Part shown: positions 35,562 through 40,629 of the stretch, piece after piece | Layout: each line of letters begins with the position of its first letter | Position numbering within the stretch: the stretch's first letter is position 1 | Source of the DNA: Burkholderiales bacterium | GTDB taxonomy: Bacteria; Pseudomonadota; Gammaproteobacteria; Burkholderiales; Casimicrobiaceae | DNA length: 40,629 bases | Direction of reading: 5' to 3' | Assembly: GCA_020851255.1 (NCBI GenBank) | Contig: JADZDA010000309.1 | Coordinates: 1 to 40,629 of the forward strand | Made by a program: the position numbers and the translations under genes | The notes under the pieces: model-generated | Databases searched by the model: none | Told to the model about the DNA's origin: nothing | The model's input: only the letters and a program-made list of their open reading frames with translations

Positions 35562-36227
35562 CTACGCGACCGTGCCCGTCGCCGCGGCAGCGGCGGCCGG
35601 CGCCGCGCGTGCCCGCCTGCGGCCGTCGATGCGACTCGGGCACTCGCGCGATTCCAGGAATCGCCGCTCGACGACGACGCTGCCGCGCCGATGCCGGACG
35701 ACGACCGCGTCGCGTCGCAGTTCGCCGAGCGCGCGCGACACGCTCTCGGGGGCGGCTCCGACGATCGCGGCGAGGTCCTTGAGCGAAGGCAGCGGGCAGT
35801 CGTGCGCATCCGACGGCCCCGTCGCGTCCTTCGTCGCGATCATCGCAAGCAGGTGGCGCAGCCGATCGGCGAGCGTGCCGGTCTTGAGCAGCACGAGATC
35901 GACCGACTTGCGCTGCTGCCAGCGCACGGACTCGGCGAGCAGCGCGGCGCGATCGCGCCCGGCGATGGGCACCCGGCGTACGCGACAGGCCGTCACCGCG
36001 CGCGCGGACAGCCGCTGGGAGAGGACATCGAGCGATTCGAGCCCGACGCGGTCGCCGGGTCCGGCGAAATAGATGGCGATGTCGCCGCCTGCGTGGGCGA
36101 GGTCGAGGCGTATCGCGCCGCTGTCGATCGTCCACAGCGAGCACGGATCGCCCGCGCGGTAGAGGTACGTGCCCGGCAGCAGGGTACGGGTCGCGACGGG
36201 CGCTTCGGTGGAATTCGGGGCATGCAT
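35562..36227 (-). CDS. Crp/Fnr-family transcriptional regulator
   Basis: 221 residues. An N-terminal cyclic-nucleotide-binding-like beta roll (LLPGTYLYRAGDPCSLWTID, GAIRLDLAH, YFAGPGDRVGLES), a long helix, and a C-terminal winged helix (LPSLKDLAAIVGAAPESVSRALGELRRD, then VVVRHRRGSVVVE). There is no N-terminal Cys cluster, so it is not an Fe-S FNR-type oxygen sensor. Residues 200-221 are a low-complexity Ala/Arg tail. Directs transcription of unknown targets; the adjacent hydrolase is a candidate. cAMP binding is possible, and the window has a putative adenylate cyclase elsewhere, but direct evidence is lacking. The 175-base gap to the next gene downstream in the window shows nothing else supported. 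Confidence 0.85.
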   Translation of the reverse strand: MHAPNSTEAPVATRTLLPGTYLYRAGDPCSLWTIDSGAIRLDLAHAGGDIAIYFAGPGDRVGLESLDVLSQRLSARAVTACRVRRVPIAGRDRAALLAESVRWQQRKSVDLVLLKTGTLADRLRHLLAMIATKDATGPSDAHDCPLPSLKDLAAIVGAAPESVSRALGELRRDAVVVRHRRGSVVVERRFLESRECPSRIDGRRRARAAPAAAAAATGTVA

Positions 36228-36402
36228 GGGCGTTCCTCGGGCGGGTTCCGCCGGGCGCCGCCGCGTAGGGCGCGCACCGGGCGGGATCCCGCCGGCAGTC
36301 GTCTACGGCACCGCGGTCTCGGCCGCGGCGATCAGGAGTCCGGGCGGGCACCGGCGCGACCGCCGGGTGCCATGACGGACTGCGGCGCTCGTGGCGCCGC
36401 GA

Positions 36403-36828
36403 TCAGGCGGCGATCGGCGGGGCCCGTGCCTCGGCCGGCGCCCAGCGCGTGGGCGTCCGTGGGTCGGGGCGATCGACCGACGCTGCCGATGCGGCGTCGG
36501 ATTCGGCCGCGGAAACGGGCGCGGTCGGCGCGAGGGGCGCGTCGGTGCCGGCGCCGACCGCGCACACCGGGCAGGCGGACCCGGTCGCGTCGGGCAGGGC
36601 CCCGGATCGCACCGGCGGCGCGACGTCGACGAGCCGGCCCTCGGGCGAGACCCGGACCCAGCGGGTCTGGGTACCGGTGCAGAGCGCGCTCGCGTCCGGC
36701 GATCGTGTGTTCGCGCCGATGTGCGCCTGCGCGGCGACCGGCAGGAGCAACTGCACGGCGACCGCCAGGGCGGCGAGCGCCCGTGCGCAGCGGGAGCGGG
36801 CGATCGGGTGCACGGGGTTCGGCGTCAC
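36403..36828 (-). CDS. DUF2946-like exported protein
   Basis: 141 residues from GTG 36828, which gives a compact signal peptide (basic start, ALAALAVAVQLLLPVAAQA). The mature part has ALCTGTQTRWVRV and ACPVCAVG; these two Cys motifs are the DUF2946 signature. The rest is Pro/Ala-rich. DUF2946 proteins are often linked to copper or heme handling, but context gives no support here. A longer in-frame start upstream would add an Arg-rich stretch lacking a signal and is rejected. Function unknown. The 36829-37080 gap shows only the dodecin promoter. Confidence 0.6.
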   Translation of the reverse strand: MTPNPVHPIARSRCARALAALAVAVQLLLPVAAQAHIGANTRSPDASALCTGTQTRWVRVSPEGRLVDVAPPVRSGALPDATGSACPVCAVGAGTDAPLAPTAPVSAAESDAASAASVDRPDPRTPTRWAPAEARAPPIAA

Positions 36829-37013
36829 GATCCGGCGATTGTACGGGCCGCGCGTCTCGTTCCCTTGAGGTCGCTCAAGCCGCCGCCCCTCGGCGCGCGC
36901 GTCTCGCGGCGCGCAGGTCGATTCGCGCCCGCGCGCGCGGTCCGGGGGACCGCCCCACCGGCGTACCGGGGCGTCCTGCGGCGCTGCGCCATGCCGTCGC
37001 GCGGCCGACCGCG

Positions 37014-37019
37014 TATGAT
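37014..37019 (+). promoter_or_regulatory. -10 element of the dodecin gene (TATGAT)
   Basis: TATGAT matches TATAAT at 5 of 6 positions, 61 bases before ATG 37081. No clear -35 is present. Confidence 0.4.
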
Positions 37020-37080
37020 CGTCGGGCGTCCGTCGAGGCCTCAACGCGGCCGCGCGGACCGACCAACACCGGAGGGAACC

Positions 37081-37314
37081 ATGGCGAAGAAGGGCAGTGC
37101 GGGCTCGAACGACGGCGTCTATCGCGTCACCGAGGTCATCGGAACGAGCAAGGTGTCGTGGGAGGACGCCGCGAAGAACGCGGTTTCCGCGGCGGCGAAG
37201 TCGCTGCGCGAGCTGCGGATCGCGGAGATCACCAAGCTCGACATGAAGGTCGAGAGTGGCAAGGTCGTCGCCTACCGGGCGCGCGTCAGCCTCTCGTTCA
37301 AGTACGATCCCTGA
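37081..37314 (+). CDS. Dodecin, flavin-binding protein
   Basis: 77 residues. Full-length dodecin: YRVTEVIGTSKVSWEDAAKN, AVSAAAKSLRELR, and a final VESGKVVAYRARVSLSFKYD. Forms a hollow dodecamer that stores or buffers flavins and protects against photodamage. GGAGGG lies just before the ATG. A 9-bp hairpin follows its stop. Confidence 0.93.
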   Translation: MAKKGSAGSNDGVYRVTEVIGTSKVSWEDAAKNAVSAAAKSLRELRIAEITKLDMKVESGKVVAYRARVSLSFKYDP

Positions 37315-37388: not shown

Positions 37389-37790
37389 ATGACCGGGTTC
37401 GATCCGCGCGAGTGCACGTGGACCGCGATCCGTGCGAGCGGTCCGGGCGGGCAGAACGTCAACAAGGTCGCAACCGCCGTCGTGCTCCGTTTCGACGTGC
37501 GGGCTTCGTCGCTGCCCGAGCGGGTGAAGGTCCGGCTGCTCGCGCTGGGCGACGCGCGCGTATCGTCCGACGGTGTGGTCCGGATCAAGGCCCAGCGATT
37601 TCGTACGCTCGAACGCAATCGGCAGGACGCCTGCGCGCGGCTCGCGGCGCTGGTCGCCGAGGCGTCCAAGGTCGTGGTGGCGCGTGTCGCGACGCGGCCG
37701 ACCCGCGCCTCGCAGCGGCGCCGCGTCGATGCGAAGGTCGTGCGCGGACGCGTGAAGGCGGACCGGCGCCGCGTGCGGGACGCCGGCTGA
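37389..37790 (+). CDS. arfB: Alternative ribosome-rescue factor (peptidyl-tRNA hydrolase)
   Basis: 133 residues. The N-terminal GGQ domain (RASGPGGQNVNKVATAVVL, GGQ at 20-22) hydrolyses peptidyl-tRNA on stalled ribosomes. The C-terminal Arg-rich tail (PTRASQRRRVDAKVVRGRVK) matches the ArfB (YaeJ) tail that enters the empty mRNA channel. It is shorter than release factors and lacks their codon-reading domain, which supports ArfB. ATG 37389; probably transcribed on its own or by read-through from dodecin. Confidence 0.93.
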   Translation: MTGFDPRECTWTAIRASGPGGQNVNKVATAVVLRFDVRASSLPERVKVRLLALGDARVSSDGVVRIKAQRFRTLERNRQDACARLAALVAEASKVVVARVATRPTRASQRRRVDAKVVRGRVKADRRRVRDAG

Positions 37791-37835: not shown

Positions 37836-38885
37836 TCAGTACGGGACCAGTTCGACGCGCCGGTTCTTCGCTCGCCCGTCCTCGGTCGTGTTGGGCGCGA
37901 CCGGCGCGGCGAACGACACGCCGACCGGGACCAGCGCCTTCGAGTCGACGCCGTGCCTGCCGGTCAGCGCGGCCACGACCGCCGCGGCACGTCGCTCGGA
38001 CAGCGACTTGTTCGACTCGGAGCCGCCGACGTTGTCGGTGTGTCCGACGACGAGCAGCCGCGTCCCGGACTTCGCCTTCGCGAGCTTCGCCATCTCGACC
38101 AGCGTGGGTTCCGATTCGGGCTTGACGTCGGCCTTGTTGGTGTCGAAGAGGATGCCGTAGAGCGCGACGCGGCCCGCGGTCGCGAGCGCCTTCTCCATCT
38201 CGTCGGCCTTGACCGTCACCATCCGGTTGTCCATGCCCTTGGTCTCGATCACGTCGACACGGGCGATGACCGTGCCGGGGTCGATGCCCTTGGCCGGGTC
38301 CTTCCAGCTCGCCGTCATCGCCGCGCAGTAGATCGTGACGTAGAGCTCGCCCGCGGCGCCCTCGGGCGGCTTTTTCATCGCGAGGTAGCGGTAGTCGTCC
38401 GAGCCCGGCATCGAGTAGCGCTGGATGCCGTAATCGACTTCGGTCGTGTACACCTGCGCGAGGAAGCGGCCGTAGCCGTTGTCGAGCGTGTTCTGCGGTC
38501 CGGTCGGCTTGCCGCCGCTCGCGCCCTCGAACAGCGGCTGGAAGCCCCTGGAGGCGAGGTCGCCCTGGTAGCCGCGCAGGCACTCGAGCGTCGAGGCGTC
38601 CTTCGGCAGCCGGTAGAAGATGGTCGTGCGCGCGCCTTCGGCATCGATCTTCTTCCACGGCAGGATCTTCTGCGTGTTGTAGTCGAACACGACCGGCGCG
38701 AGCGCGATCTGGTGGGCGTCGAAGGACTTCGCGCCGTAGCGCAGGATCTCGGAGCCGGCGATCCGCTTGAGGATCGGATGGTCCTTGGATCCGGCGACGT
38801 CGGCCGCCACGGCATGGGCGGCGGCGGACGCCGCGATCAGGGCGGCGGCGAGGCGGAAGGCGAGGGTCGTGGTCGGCTGTCGCAT
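37836..38885 (-). CDS. OmpA-family protein with DUF4892-like N-terminal domain
   Basis: 349 residues from ATG 38885. Signal peptide with cleavage near AVAAD. N-terminal domain: KDHPILKRIAGSEILRYGAKSF with YRLPKD, LECLRGYQGDL, resembling DUF4892. The C-terminal 110 residues are an OmpA domain that binds peptidoglycan: FDTNKADVKPES, VVGHTDNVGGSESNKSLSERRA, KNRRVELVPY. Likely a periplasmic or outer-membrane anchored wall-binding protein. Longer in-frame starts are Pro/Arg-rich and lack a signal. Divergent from the GST gene. Confidence 0.88.
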   Translation of the reverse strand: MRQPTTTLAFRLAAALIAASAAAHAVAADVAGSKDHPILKRIAGSEILRYGAKSFDAHQIALAPVVFDYNTQKILPWKKIDAEGARTTIFYRLPKDASTLECLRGYQGDLASRGFQPLFEGASGGKPTGPQNTLDNGYGRFLAQVYTTEVDYGIQRYSMPGSDDYRYLAMKKPPEGAAGELYVTIYCAAMTASWKDPAKGIDPGTVIARVDVIETKGMDNRMVTVKADEMEKALATAGRVALYGILFDTNKADVKPESEPTLVEMAKLAKAKSGTRLLVVGHTDNVGGSESNKSLSERRAAAVVAALTGRHGVDSKALVPVGVSFAAPVAPNTTEDGRAKNRRVELVPY

Positions 38886-38987
38886 GGGCGCGGGACGTGG
38901 TGTCGGGAGACGGGGCGGCGCGGACGGCCGCGGGGCCGGCCACTGTAGCCCAATTTCCGCGCTCCGGCGGCGCCGCACGCCGATCGG

Positions 38988-39035: not shown

Positions 39036-39647
39036 GTGAAACTCTATTACTCGCAGACCTCGCCGTTCGTGCGCAAGGTGCTCGTCGCCGCGCACGAACT
39101 CGGCCTCGCCGACCGCATCGAGAAGCTGCCGGCCTCGGCGCATCCGGTCGACCGCGACCGGGCGCTGGTCGCGCGCAATCCGCTGGGCCAGGTGCCCACG
39201 CTGGTGACCGACGACGGTGACGTGCTCTACGACAGCCGCGTCATCTGCGAATACCTGAGCGAACTGGCCGACGGCGAGGTCGTGCCCTCGGACGGCGAGG
39301 CGCGCTGGCGCGCGCTCGTCGACCAGTCGCTCGCCGACGGCATCCTCGATGCGGCGGTGATCACGCGCTACGAGATGGCGGCGAGGCCCGAGGCGCTGCG
39401 CTGGAGCGACTGGATCGCCGGGCAGCTGGACAAGGTCGCCTGCGGACTCGCGGAGCTCGAGCGCCGCGCCCCGGACTTCGGCGATCGCATCGACGTCGGC
39501 ACGATCGCCTACGGCTGCGCGCTCGGCTACCTCGACGTCCGCTTCGCATCGCTCGCCTGGCGTGACGGGCACCCGAACACCGCTGCGTGGTTCGAGTGGT
39601 TCGGAGGCCGCGACTCGATGGTGGAGACCCGCCCGCCCGCCGGCTGA
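39036..39647 (+). CDS. Glutathione S-transferase
   Basis: 203 residues from GTG 39036. The thioredoxin-fold N-domain has KLYYSQTSPFVRKVLV (Ser/Tyr/Cys-type active site near residues 6-9), NPLGQVPTLVTDDGDVLYDSRVICEYL (the glutathione gamma-glutamyl site), and an all-helical C-domain with DWIAGQLDKV and YLDVRFASLAW. Length fits bacterial GSTs. Likely detoxification or stress role; substrate unknown. Stop 39647 is followed by a 212-base leader to cysS. Confidence 0.9.
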   Translation: MKLYYSQTSPFVRKVLVAAHELGLADRIEKLPASAHPVDRDRALVARNPLGQVPTLVTDDGDVLYDSRVICEYLSELADGEVVPSDGEARWRALVDQSLADGILDAAVITRYEMAARPEALRWSDWIAGQLDKVACGLAELERRAPDFGDRIDVGTIAYGCALGYLDVRFASLAWRDGHPNTAAWFEWFGGRDSMVETRPPAG

Positions 39648-39729
39648 GCGCGGCGCGCGGCCTCGCGCCGATTCGACCGGCGACCCGGGGGCCGCGCCGG
39701 GCGCCTGGCCTGCCGGCGCCGGCTGCGGA

Positions 39730-39735
39730 TACCAT
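39730..39735 (+). promoter_or_regulatory. Possible -10 of the cysS leader (TACCAT)
   Basis: TACCAT with 7 bases to A39743 of the leader ATG, so transcription could begin at or just before that A, making the leader ORF leaderless. The -35 is weak (TGGCCT, 39706-39711, 18-base spacer). The sequence fits but does not prove this. Confidence 0.4.
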
Positions 39736-39742
39736 AGCCGGC

Positions 39743-39796
39743 ATGCGCTGCCGCTGTCGCGACCCGCGAACCCGATCGCCCCGGCGGCGGGGCTGA
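39743..39796 (+). CDS. Cys-containing leader peptide of cysS
   Basis: 17-codon ORF MRCRCRDPRTRSPRRRG with TGA 39794-39796. Cys codons TGC (39749) and TGT (39755) are at positions 3 and 5. It lies between the only plausible cysS promoter and a strong intrinsic terminator, in the same direction as cysS. This is the layout of amino-acid attenuators, where ribosome stalling at the codons of the regulatory amino acid blocks terminator formation. Translation has not been shown; a start with no upstream Shine-Dalgarno fits a leaderless transcript. The peptide is otherwise Arg-rich, as is common by chance at this G+C, so the evidence is the arrangement rather than the composition alone. Confidence 0.6.
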   Translation: MRCRCRDPRTRSPRRRG

Positions 39797-39837
39797 TCCG
39801 CGCCCCCCGCGACCCGAACCCCCGCCGTAGCCGCCGG
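39781..39837 (+). promoter_or_regulatory. Predicted antiterminator in the cysS leader
   Basis: CCGGCGGC at 39781-39788 (inside the leader ORF) is identical to the terminator right arm and is the exact complement of the terminator left arm GCCGCCGG at 39830-39837, so the two can form an 8-bp antiterminator that excludes the terminator. CGGCGGGG (39785-39792) can instead pair with CCCCGCCG (39820-39827), leaving the terminator free. A ribosome at the leader stop would cover the first segment; a ribosome stalled at the Cys codons would leave it free. Thus low charged tRNA-Cys should favour cysS expression. Confidence 0.55.
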
Positions 39838-39854
39838 CCCCCCGGCGGCTTTTT
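39830..39854 (+). terminator. Intrinsic terminator (attenuator) upstream of cysS
   Basis: GCCGCCGG (39830-39837), loop CCCC, CCGGCGGC (39842-39849), then TTTTT (39850-39854): perfect 8-bp stem with a U tract, ending five bases before the cysS ATG. It is the only U-tailed intrinsic terminator I see in the window. It is too close to cysS to be an ordinary terminator for the GST gene, since no promoter fits between it and the start. Confidence 0.85.
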
Positions 39855-39859
39855 CGTTC

Positions 39860-40629
39860 ATGGCCCGACCACTCTCGCTGTACGACAACTGGGAACGGCG
39901 CCTGCGCCCGTTCCAGCCGCTCGCCGCCGGCGCGCCGGTGGGCCTGTACACCTGCGGCCCGACCGTCTACGACTACCAGCACATCGGGAACTTCCGCACG
40001 TTCCTGTTCGAGGACGTGCTCAAACGCGTGCTCGCGTGGAACGGCTATCGCGTGAACCACGTGATGAACATCACCGACGTGGGCCATCTCACGTCCGACG
40101 CCGACACCGGCGAGGACAAGATGGAGAAGGGTGCGCGCCGGACCGGCAAGACCGCGTGGGAGGTGGCCGCCTACTACACCGACGCGTTCCTGGCCGACAT
40201 GAAGCTGCTGCGCATCGGCGACCCGACGGTCCTGTGCAAGGCGACCGACCATATCGCCGAGCAGATCGCGTTCATCACTGACATCGAGCGCAACGGCTAC
40301 GCGTACCGGACCTCCGACGGCGTCTATTTCGACACCGCGAGGCTCGACGACTACGGCCACCTCGCGCGACTCGATGTCGCGGGCCTCGAGGCCGGCAAGC
40401 GCGTCGACCTGGGCGAGAAGCGCAACGCGACCGACTTCGCGCTGTGGAAGTTCTCGCCGCCTGGCGAGACGCGGCAGATGGAGTGGGATTCGCCCTGGGG
40501 CCGCGGTTTCCCCGGCTGGCACATCGAGTGCTCGGCGATGGCGCAGAAGTACCTGGGCGACTACTTCGACATCCACTGCGGCGGCGAGGACCACATCCCG
40601 GTCCACCACACCAACGAGATCGCGCAGAC
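39860..40629 (+). CDS. cysS: Cysteinyl-tRNA synthetase, N-terminal part (runs off the window)
   Basis: First 256 codons; no stop in the window. Ligates cysteine to tRNA-Cys with ATP. Zinc and active-site residues: Cys32 ([11 protein letters not shown]), HIGN 41-44 (HIGH motif), Cys224 (GWHIECSAM), His249 and His250 (PVHHTNE). The KMSKS motif lies beyond the window. [14 protein letters not shown] and MNITDVGHL are unlike the CGMTVYD..HLGHAR and NITDIDDK forms of most betaproteobacteria, and closer to CysS types seen in other phyla, so transfer is possible. No Shine-Dalgarno is visible before ATG; the terminator hairpin occupies that space. Confidence 0.92.

Follow-up and report, generated by a model that had tools for sequence, protein, structure and literature searches.

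The window (the whole stretch of DNA that was analysed, 40,629 nt from a member of the Burkholderiales) runs out within cysS, the gene for cysteinyl-tRNA synthetase, and the 5' part of this gene is preceded by a compact leader carrying a -10-like hexamer, a short ORF with two Cys codons and a GC-rich hairpin followed by a run of T (Table 1). The first-pass annotation, made from the sequence alone, had called the downstream gene cysS and had described a 17-codon ORF with Cys codons at positions 3 and 5, a perfect hairpin with TTTTT five bases before the cysS ATG, and an 8-nt copy of the right arm of the terminator inside the leader ORF. All of these are in the sequence as stated, exactly to the base, and the gene call agrees with the Pfam match. 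The terminator string at 39830-39854 is GCCGCCGG-CCCC-CCGGCGGC-TTTTT with a perfect 8-bp stem, five bases lie between the T run and the cysS ATG at 39860, and no Shine-Dalgarno sequence was found between the hairpin and this ATG in the window. The leader ORF is translated as M R C R C R D P R T R S P R R R G, followed by the stop codon.

Table 1. Features of the cysS leader and Pfam-annotated neighbouring genes in the window
Feature	Position	Strand	Basis
Crp-like regulator	35562-36224	-	Pfam
Dodecin (C-terminal part)	36391-37311		Pfam
RF-1 domain protein	37389-37787		Pfam
OmpA-family protein	37836-38975	-	Pfam
-10-like hexamer TACCAT, predicted promoter	39730-39735	+	sequence; TANNNT also before uORF ATG in relatives
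Leader ORF MRCRCRDPRTRSPRRRG, 17 codons, predicted leaderless	39743-39796	+	sequence; Cys-blind rule
Segment 1 region tested (ORF start through Cys codons), can pair with segment 2	39743-39760	+	duplex energy
Cys codon 3 (TGC)	39749-39751	+	leader ORF sequence
Cys codon 5 (TGT)	39755-39757	+	leader ORF sequence
Segment 2, putative antiterminator arm CCGGCGGC, identical to terminator right arm	39781-39788	+	sequence, folds
Competing segment, exact reverse complement of 39820-39827	39785-39792	+	sequence
Partner of competing segment	39820-39827	+	sequence, folds
Intrinsic terminator hairpin, with outer A-T pair 39829/39850	39829-39850	+	sequence, terminator scan, relatives
Terminator left arm (segment 3)	39830-39837	+
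Terminator right arm (segment 4)	39842-39849	+
T5 tract of terminator	39850-39854	+	sequence
cysS, cysteinyl-tRNA synthetase, 5' part, runs off window	39860-40629	+	Pfam PF01406 tRNA-synt_1e, E 1.2e-71

Taken singly, no part of the leader is more than mildly unusual for DNA this rich in GC. For the window, an ATG uORF with at least two Cys codons arose in 24 of 1000 dinucleotide shuffles, and one terminator-like site was found in 1.6 kb compared with a mean of 0.6 in shuffles. Shuffling of 39743-39829 produced the 8-mer CCGGCGGC in 149 of 5000 trials, and the + strand of the window carries this 8-mer 21 times. The window alone is a weak case; once the sequences of its relatives are added, the combination of parts is far from chance.

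The genomes of the window's family were searched with the CysS protein, and a match was obtained in 62 of 64 (G070 and G087 are without cysS). An intrinsic terminator was found before cysS in 33 of the 62, in six of the seven genera of the family (g1 6/22, g2 16/16, g3 4/7, g4 2/2, g5 4/4, g6 0/10 and g7 1/1), and before one copy in G043, a genome of another family that has cysS twice, giving 34 of 64 loci in total. In these counts G082 (hairpin at -103..-77) and G083 (-104..-80) stand as loci without a terminator, and L034 (JAAFJO, with an identical leader and taken as a duplicate of G063) and L035 (JAGRIO) are left out. In the 34 terminator loci the maximum number of Cys per ATG uORF averaged 3.38, compared with 0.55 in shuffled sequences, and at least two Cys were present in 28/34, whereas the 30 loci without a terminator gave 0.27 compared with 0.31 shuffled, and at least two Cys in 2/30; these two loci, G010 and G026, each carry two Cys in an ATG uORF although they are without a terminator.

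The uORFs were also chosen by a rule blind to Cys (a TANNNT hexamer, 4-10 nt and ATG), which was defined after the leaders had already been inspected. This rule gave a uORF in 31 of the 34 terminator loci, and all 31 contained Cys, which accounted for 112 of 751 residues (14.9%) compared with 4.7 and 4.1% in the other frames. On the 30 loci without a terminator it gave two uORFs, neither with Cys; this run, and that on the three terminator loci lacking a candidate, carried an additional filter (6-45 codons, 230 nt before cysS) absent from the 34-locus run, in which the 31 chosen uORFs had 12-35 codons. No uORF was obtained by the rule in G031, G061 and G072 in spite of their terminators; G072 has a uORF with four Cys and no hexamer of the rule's form, and in G061 not a single ATG uORF contains Cys. 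Among 23 cysS loci from other families of the order, the rule gave four uORFs, two of them with Cys and none with a terminator, and one of the 23 had a terminator without a Cys uORF. The combination of terminator and Cys uORF was absent from the 79 loci L035-L113, in a screen where uORFs needed at least two Cys and a few loci had less than 200 nt of upstream sequence. A DNA search of the 64 family genomes with the G028 leader gave 12 matches in 11 genomes, and beyond the leader itself only its terminator part was matched. The first-pass annotation had proposed that relatives be aligned and inspected for conserved Cys codons and covarying arms. Run across the family, this comparison showed a Cys uORF by the rule in 31/34 loci with a terminator and in none of the 30 terminator-less loci, which supports its claim of attenuator-type control of cysS.

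The hexamer lies 5-10 nt before the uORF ATG in 31/31 leaders, with a spacing of exactly 6 nt in 18/31. In the window TACCAT ends 7 nt before the leader ATG, and a strict sigma-70 scan detected no promoter. Like the parts, their order and the enrichment in Cys, this spacing is read directly from the leaders, and it suggests that transcription starts at or beside the uORF ATG; the leader ORF is thus probably leaderless. Tandem Cys are present in 21/31 leaders at variable positions, and the window leader has a non-tandem C-R-C at positions 3-5, two Cys in 17 codons. Example leaders are MTKSLSCCCAPICICCCAHRRVCSQ (G028) and MHYPLIACCCRCRC... (G063 and its apparent duplicate JAAFJO010000003.1). In 30/31 leaders the uORF stop is found 13-38 nt before the terminator.

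The complementarity of each leader to its own terminator left arm was analysed in 30 of the 31 leaders (G007 was left out, and the values for G034, which has unread bases in its leader, are unsure). When 25 windows were slid along the leaders, the complementarity peaked over the last 12 nt of the uORF, with a mean of -8.42 kcal/mol compared with -5.95 kcal/mol in shuffled sequences (z -6.3). Such a position fits attenuation, since segment 2 would be covered by a ribosome that has reached the stop codon, and the sequences lend some support to a putative antiterminator at the uORF stop codon as a feature of the group. Leaders paired better with their own arms than with swapped arms over the whole region (p 0.0016), the last 8 codons (p 0.031) and the last 16 nt (p 0.0034), and within genus g2 (p 0.0078 and 0.0044), but no difference was detected outside g2 (p 0.53 and 0.19) or within each arm type (p 0.12 and 0.21). 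An alignment of 15 g2 leaders revealed no consensus pairing apart from the terminator.

For single leaders the signal was weaker. The 2:3 duplex reached p 0.05 in 5/30 leaders and was no better than the shuffle mean in 8/30; in the window its energy was -19.5 kcal/mol (shuffle p 0.066), and that of the 1:2 duplex was -18.9 kcal/mol (shuffle p 0.044, a duplex with p <0.05 in only 4/30 leaders). The candidate antiterminator duplex of the near relative G001 was not better than shuffles (p 0.79); what favours the antiterminator first proposed for the window is the complementarity across the group. In fold models of the leaders, pairing of the left arm was 0.67 with a stalled ribosome compared with 0.37 with a ribosome at the stop codon, and was higher in 24/30, although more of the RNA is left free in the stalled model; the stalled-state value of 0.67 is only slightly above the 0.64 of shuffles (p 0.079).

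For the window, the fold model with a stall at Cys3 paired 39781-39788 with 39830-39837 before the right arm emerged, and with a stall at Cys5 a pairing of 39782-39791 with 39819-39827 formed in place of the antiterminator. A competing helix had been claimed between 39785-39792 and 39820-39827: the complementarity is there, but the folds use the shifted register just given. Once the right arm was present, the terminator formed in the three full-length states modelled (0.97), and the switch would therefore have to be kinetic in the window. In G028, G033 and G064 the terminator was excluded in the stalled state (0.00-0.04).

Taken together, we consider it probable that the leader is a cysteine-responsive, ribosome-mediated transcription attenuator of cysS, a reading that the sequences support well for the family; it is also likely for the window, although the element may be losing strength there. 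Transcription would begin at the ATG of 39743 or beside it, and the leader ORF would be translated from the 5' end of the transcript. With charged tRNA-Cys plentiful, the ribosome would reach the stop codon and cover segment 2, upon which the terminator would form and transcription would end before cysS. With charged tRNA-Cys scarce, the ribosome would stall at one of the Cys codons, codon 3 being the most favourable, and mask segment 1; segment 2, left free, would pair with the emerging left arm, and RNA polymerase would continue into cysS. With about 10 nt between its end and the cysS ATG in the window, the hairpin may also hinder translation of cysS.

It is possible that the attenuator is eroding in the window's subclade, and the fullest form of this idea, which we consider unlikely, is that the device works in relatives with long Cys runs and has decayed in the subclade into a relic that now gives constant partial termination. 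The window and the three genomes nearest to it in the CysS tree (G001, G014 and G019) have only 2, 2, 1 and 0 Cys respectively in the leader, compared with 3-8 in the 15 chosen g2 leaders, G019 is without the ATG and the T run, and the terminator is absent from 16/22 g1 and 10/10 g6 genomes. However, the right arm, the T run and the -10 hexamer persist in G000 (the window), G001 and G014, and the 1:2 and 2:3 segments of the window are among the stronger ones of the set (p 0.044 and 0.066). In L007 (G019), at approximately 100 nt upstream of cysS, the hairpin is largely kept, the T run has become TTCCTC and the uORF ATG is lost.

Somewhat less probable again is a translational attenuator, in which the hairpin would block ribosome access to cysS instead of, or besides, ending transcription. 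The short distance of about 10 nt from the hairpin to the cysS ATG in the window, with no Shine-Dalgarno sequence between them, would suit this arrangement, but in the 34 loci the hairpin is followed by a tail rich in T (5 or more T in 8 positions, as the terminator finder requires), and the gap from hairpin to cysS ATG varies over these loci from 9 to 100 nt.

A hairpin serving only as the terminator of the upstream gene, next to a Cys uORF present by chance, is very improbable, although the GST gene upstream in the window is on the same strand and the single parts are only mildly unusual. The upstream genes were identified by anchored frames and Pfam, which replaced longest-ORF calling, unreliable in GC-rich DNA. 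They proved to be GST in the window, GNAT in G014 and G035, a subtilase in JAAFJO and a divergent PMT-type gene in G007 and G020. Because the neighbours differ, the hairpin is not just the terminator of one of them, and with a Cys uORF behind a -10 hexamer in 31/34 loci with a terminator and 0/30 without, this explanation was rejected. A T-box, riboswitch or protein-binding leader is the least probable of all, given the lack of consensus pairing beyond the terminator in the 15 g2 leaders, and a T-box or other known RNA was rejected as a search of 39500-40100 against Rfam gave no match up to E 5.

In a sample of 24 genomes from other families of the order, only G043 has a copy of the CysS type of the window's family (67%), and the best matches in the other 23 were at 40-49% identity; G043 carries both types. 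At E 1e-70, a match to this CysS was obtained in 17/399 genomes of the order and 4/369 of the class, the window's own included. The family's CysS thus belongs to another lineage than the CysS of most of the order, which suggests gene replacement or transfer. Besides G043, eight such loci lie outside the family and were judged by eye, not with the terminator finder: G181 and G281 have a Cys uORF and a terminator-like hairpin, G296, G267 and G381 have uORFs that end in Cys and no visible terminator, and G663, G543 and G779 have neither a Cys uORF nor a terminator.

In a CysS tree of 63 rows (G031 hand-labelled as having a leader, L035 present twice, also as JAGRIO, and 3/16 g2 genomes included), leaders are found on deep branches, and many genomes of g1, g3 and g6 lack one. 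As labelled, the tree needs 12 leader changes, six of which are forced by well-supported branches. We read the presence on deep branches, the scattered absence and the 12 changes as pointing to an old leader with repeated losses.

Classical trp, his and pheST attenuators of enteric bacteria work through alternative pairing of segments 1:2, 2:3 and 3:4. The same segment logic would apply to the cysS leader, whereas the enteric leaders have Shine-Dalgarno sequences and respond to other amino acids. The closest known case is uORFC-8-2, a probable ribosome-mediated attenuator before cysS in Rhodobacterales (Brewer et al. 2021, PMC8632094). Its first stem holds the Cys codons and its second is a terminator with a U run, and it shares with the leaders of the family an AUG uORF with Cys, the terminator with a U run, the cysS gene and the same proposed logic. 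It is described from Alphaproteobacteria with tandem Cys usually at codons 14-15, whereas the window leader carries a C-R-C at 3-5 in place of the tandem Cys of uORFC-8-2. The present leaders are taken to be betaproteobacterial, going by the relative JAAFJO010000003.1, vary among relatives in the number and position of Cys, and have a uORF predicted to be leaderless. The first-pass annotation had stated that no example for cysS was known from a betaproteobacterium, and none was found among the titles and abstract openings of the literature searched, with most subscription papers outside the search, but the kind of control itself was already known from uORFC-8-2. What sets the present leaders apart is the probable leaderless ORF.

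Leaders of actinobacteria show a further likeness. ORFs with Cys runs precede the cys operon or cbs in actinobacteria, and no conserved terminator hairpins were reported in Mycobacterium (PMC1262725); leaderless polycysteine short ORFs are described in mycobacteria (Canestrari et al. 2020, as cited in PMC9031893), and Cys-codon ORFs of this sort are mentioned in M. tuberculosis in PMC9094748 and PMC13236596. The short Cys-rich uORF, its leaderless nature (in mycobacteria) and attenuation depending on cysteine supply are common to both (PMC1262725, PMC9031893), and the leaders of PMC1262725 differ from those of the window's family, in which an intrinsic terminator precedes cysS. The leaderless attenuator trpL of Sinorhizobium meliloti likewise has a transcript that starts at the ATG of the leader ORF, but it responds to Trp, controls trpE(G) and belongs to another class (PMC7298713).

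If the attenuator reading holds, predicted cysteine attenuation of cysS extends to a second proteobacterial group, in a synthetase whose lineage differs from the one seen in most families sampled from the order. Within the family the leader would exist in intact, minimal and decayed versions besides having been lost, and therefore the origin, shrinkage and loss of an attenuator could be studied with sequences already known.

Two sets of variants depart from the common plan. In G007 (L012:1434-1488) the uORF MSSCRRCSRSAAF... extends through the terminator; its first Cys codon overlaps the left arm where this begins, and its second lies in the loop, which makes it a possible minimal attenuator. 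In L183, L184 and L186 (G296, G267 and G381 respectively), at approximately 100-200 nt upstream of cysS, Cys runs stand directly at the uORF stop (..CYCCCC, ..RCCC and ..SSCCRC, read by eye), and no clear intrinsic terminator was seen by eye in the three genomes. These three leaders resemble the actinobacterial cys leaders of PMC1262725, and this terminator-less form may use Rho or translation. We put forward, tentatively and with more doubt than confidence, that the leaderless polycysteine attenuator of one cysS lineage has been reworked into the classical four-segment form in most leaders, a minimal form in G007 and a terminator-less form in G296, G267 and G381; if true, a change of attenuator mechanism could be observed within orthologous leaders of a single gene.

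Codon choice differs between the leaders and the gene behind them: TGT accounts for 60 of the 112 Cys codons in the 31 leaders, compared with 4 of 67 in the partial cysS genes of the same loci, a partial sample in which many loci covered only ~100 nt of cysS.
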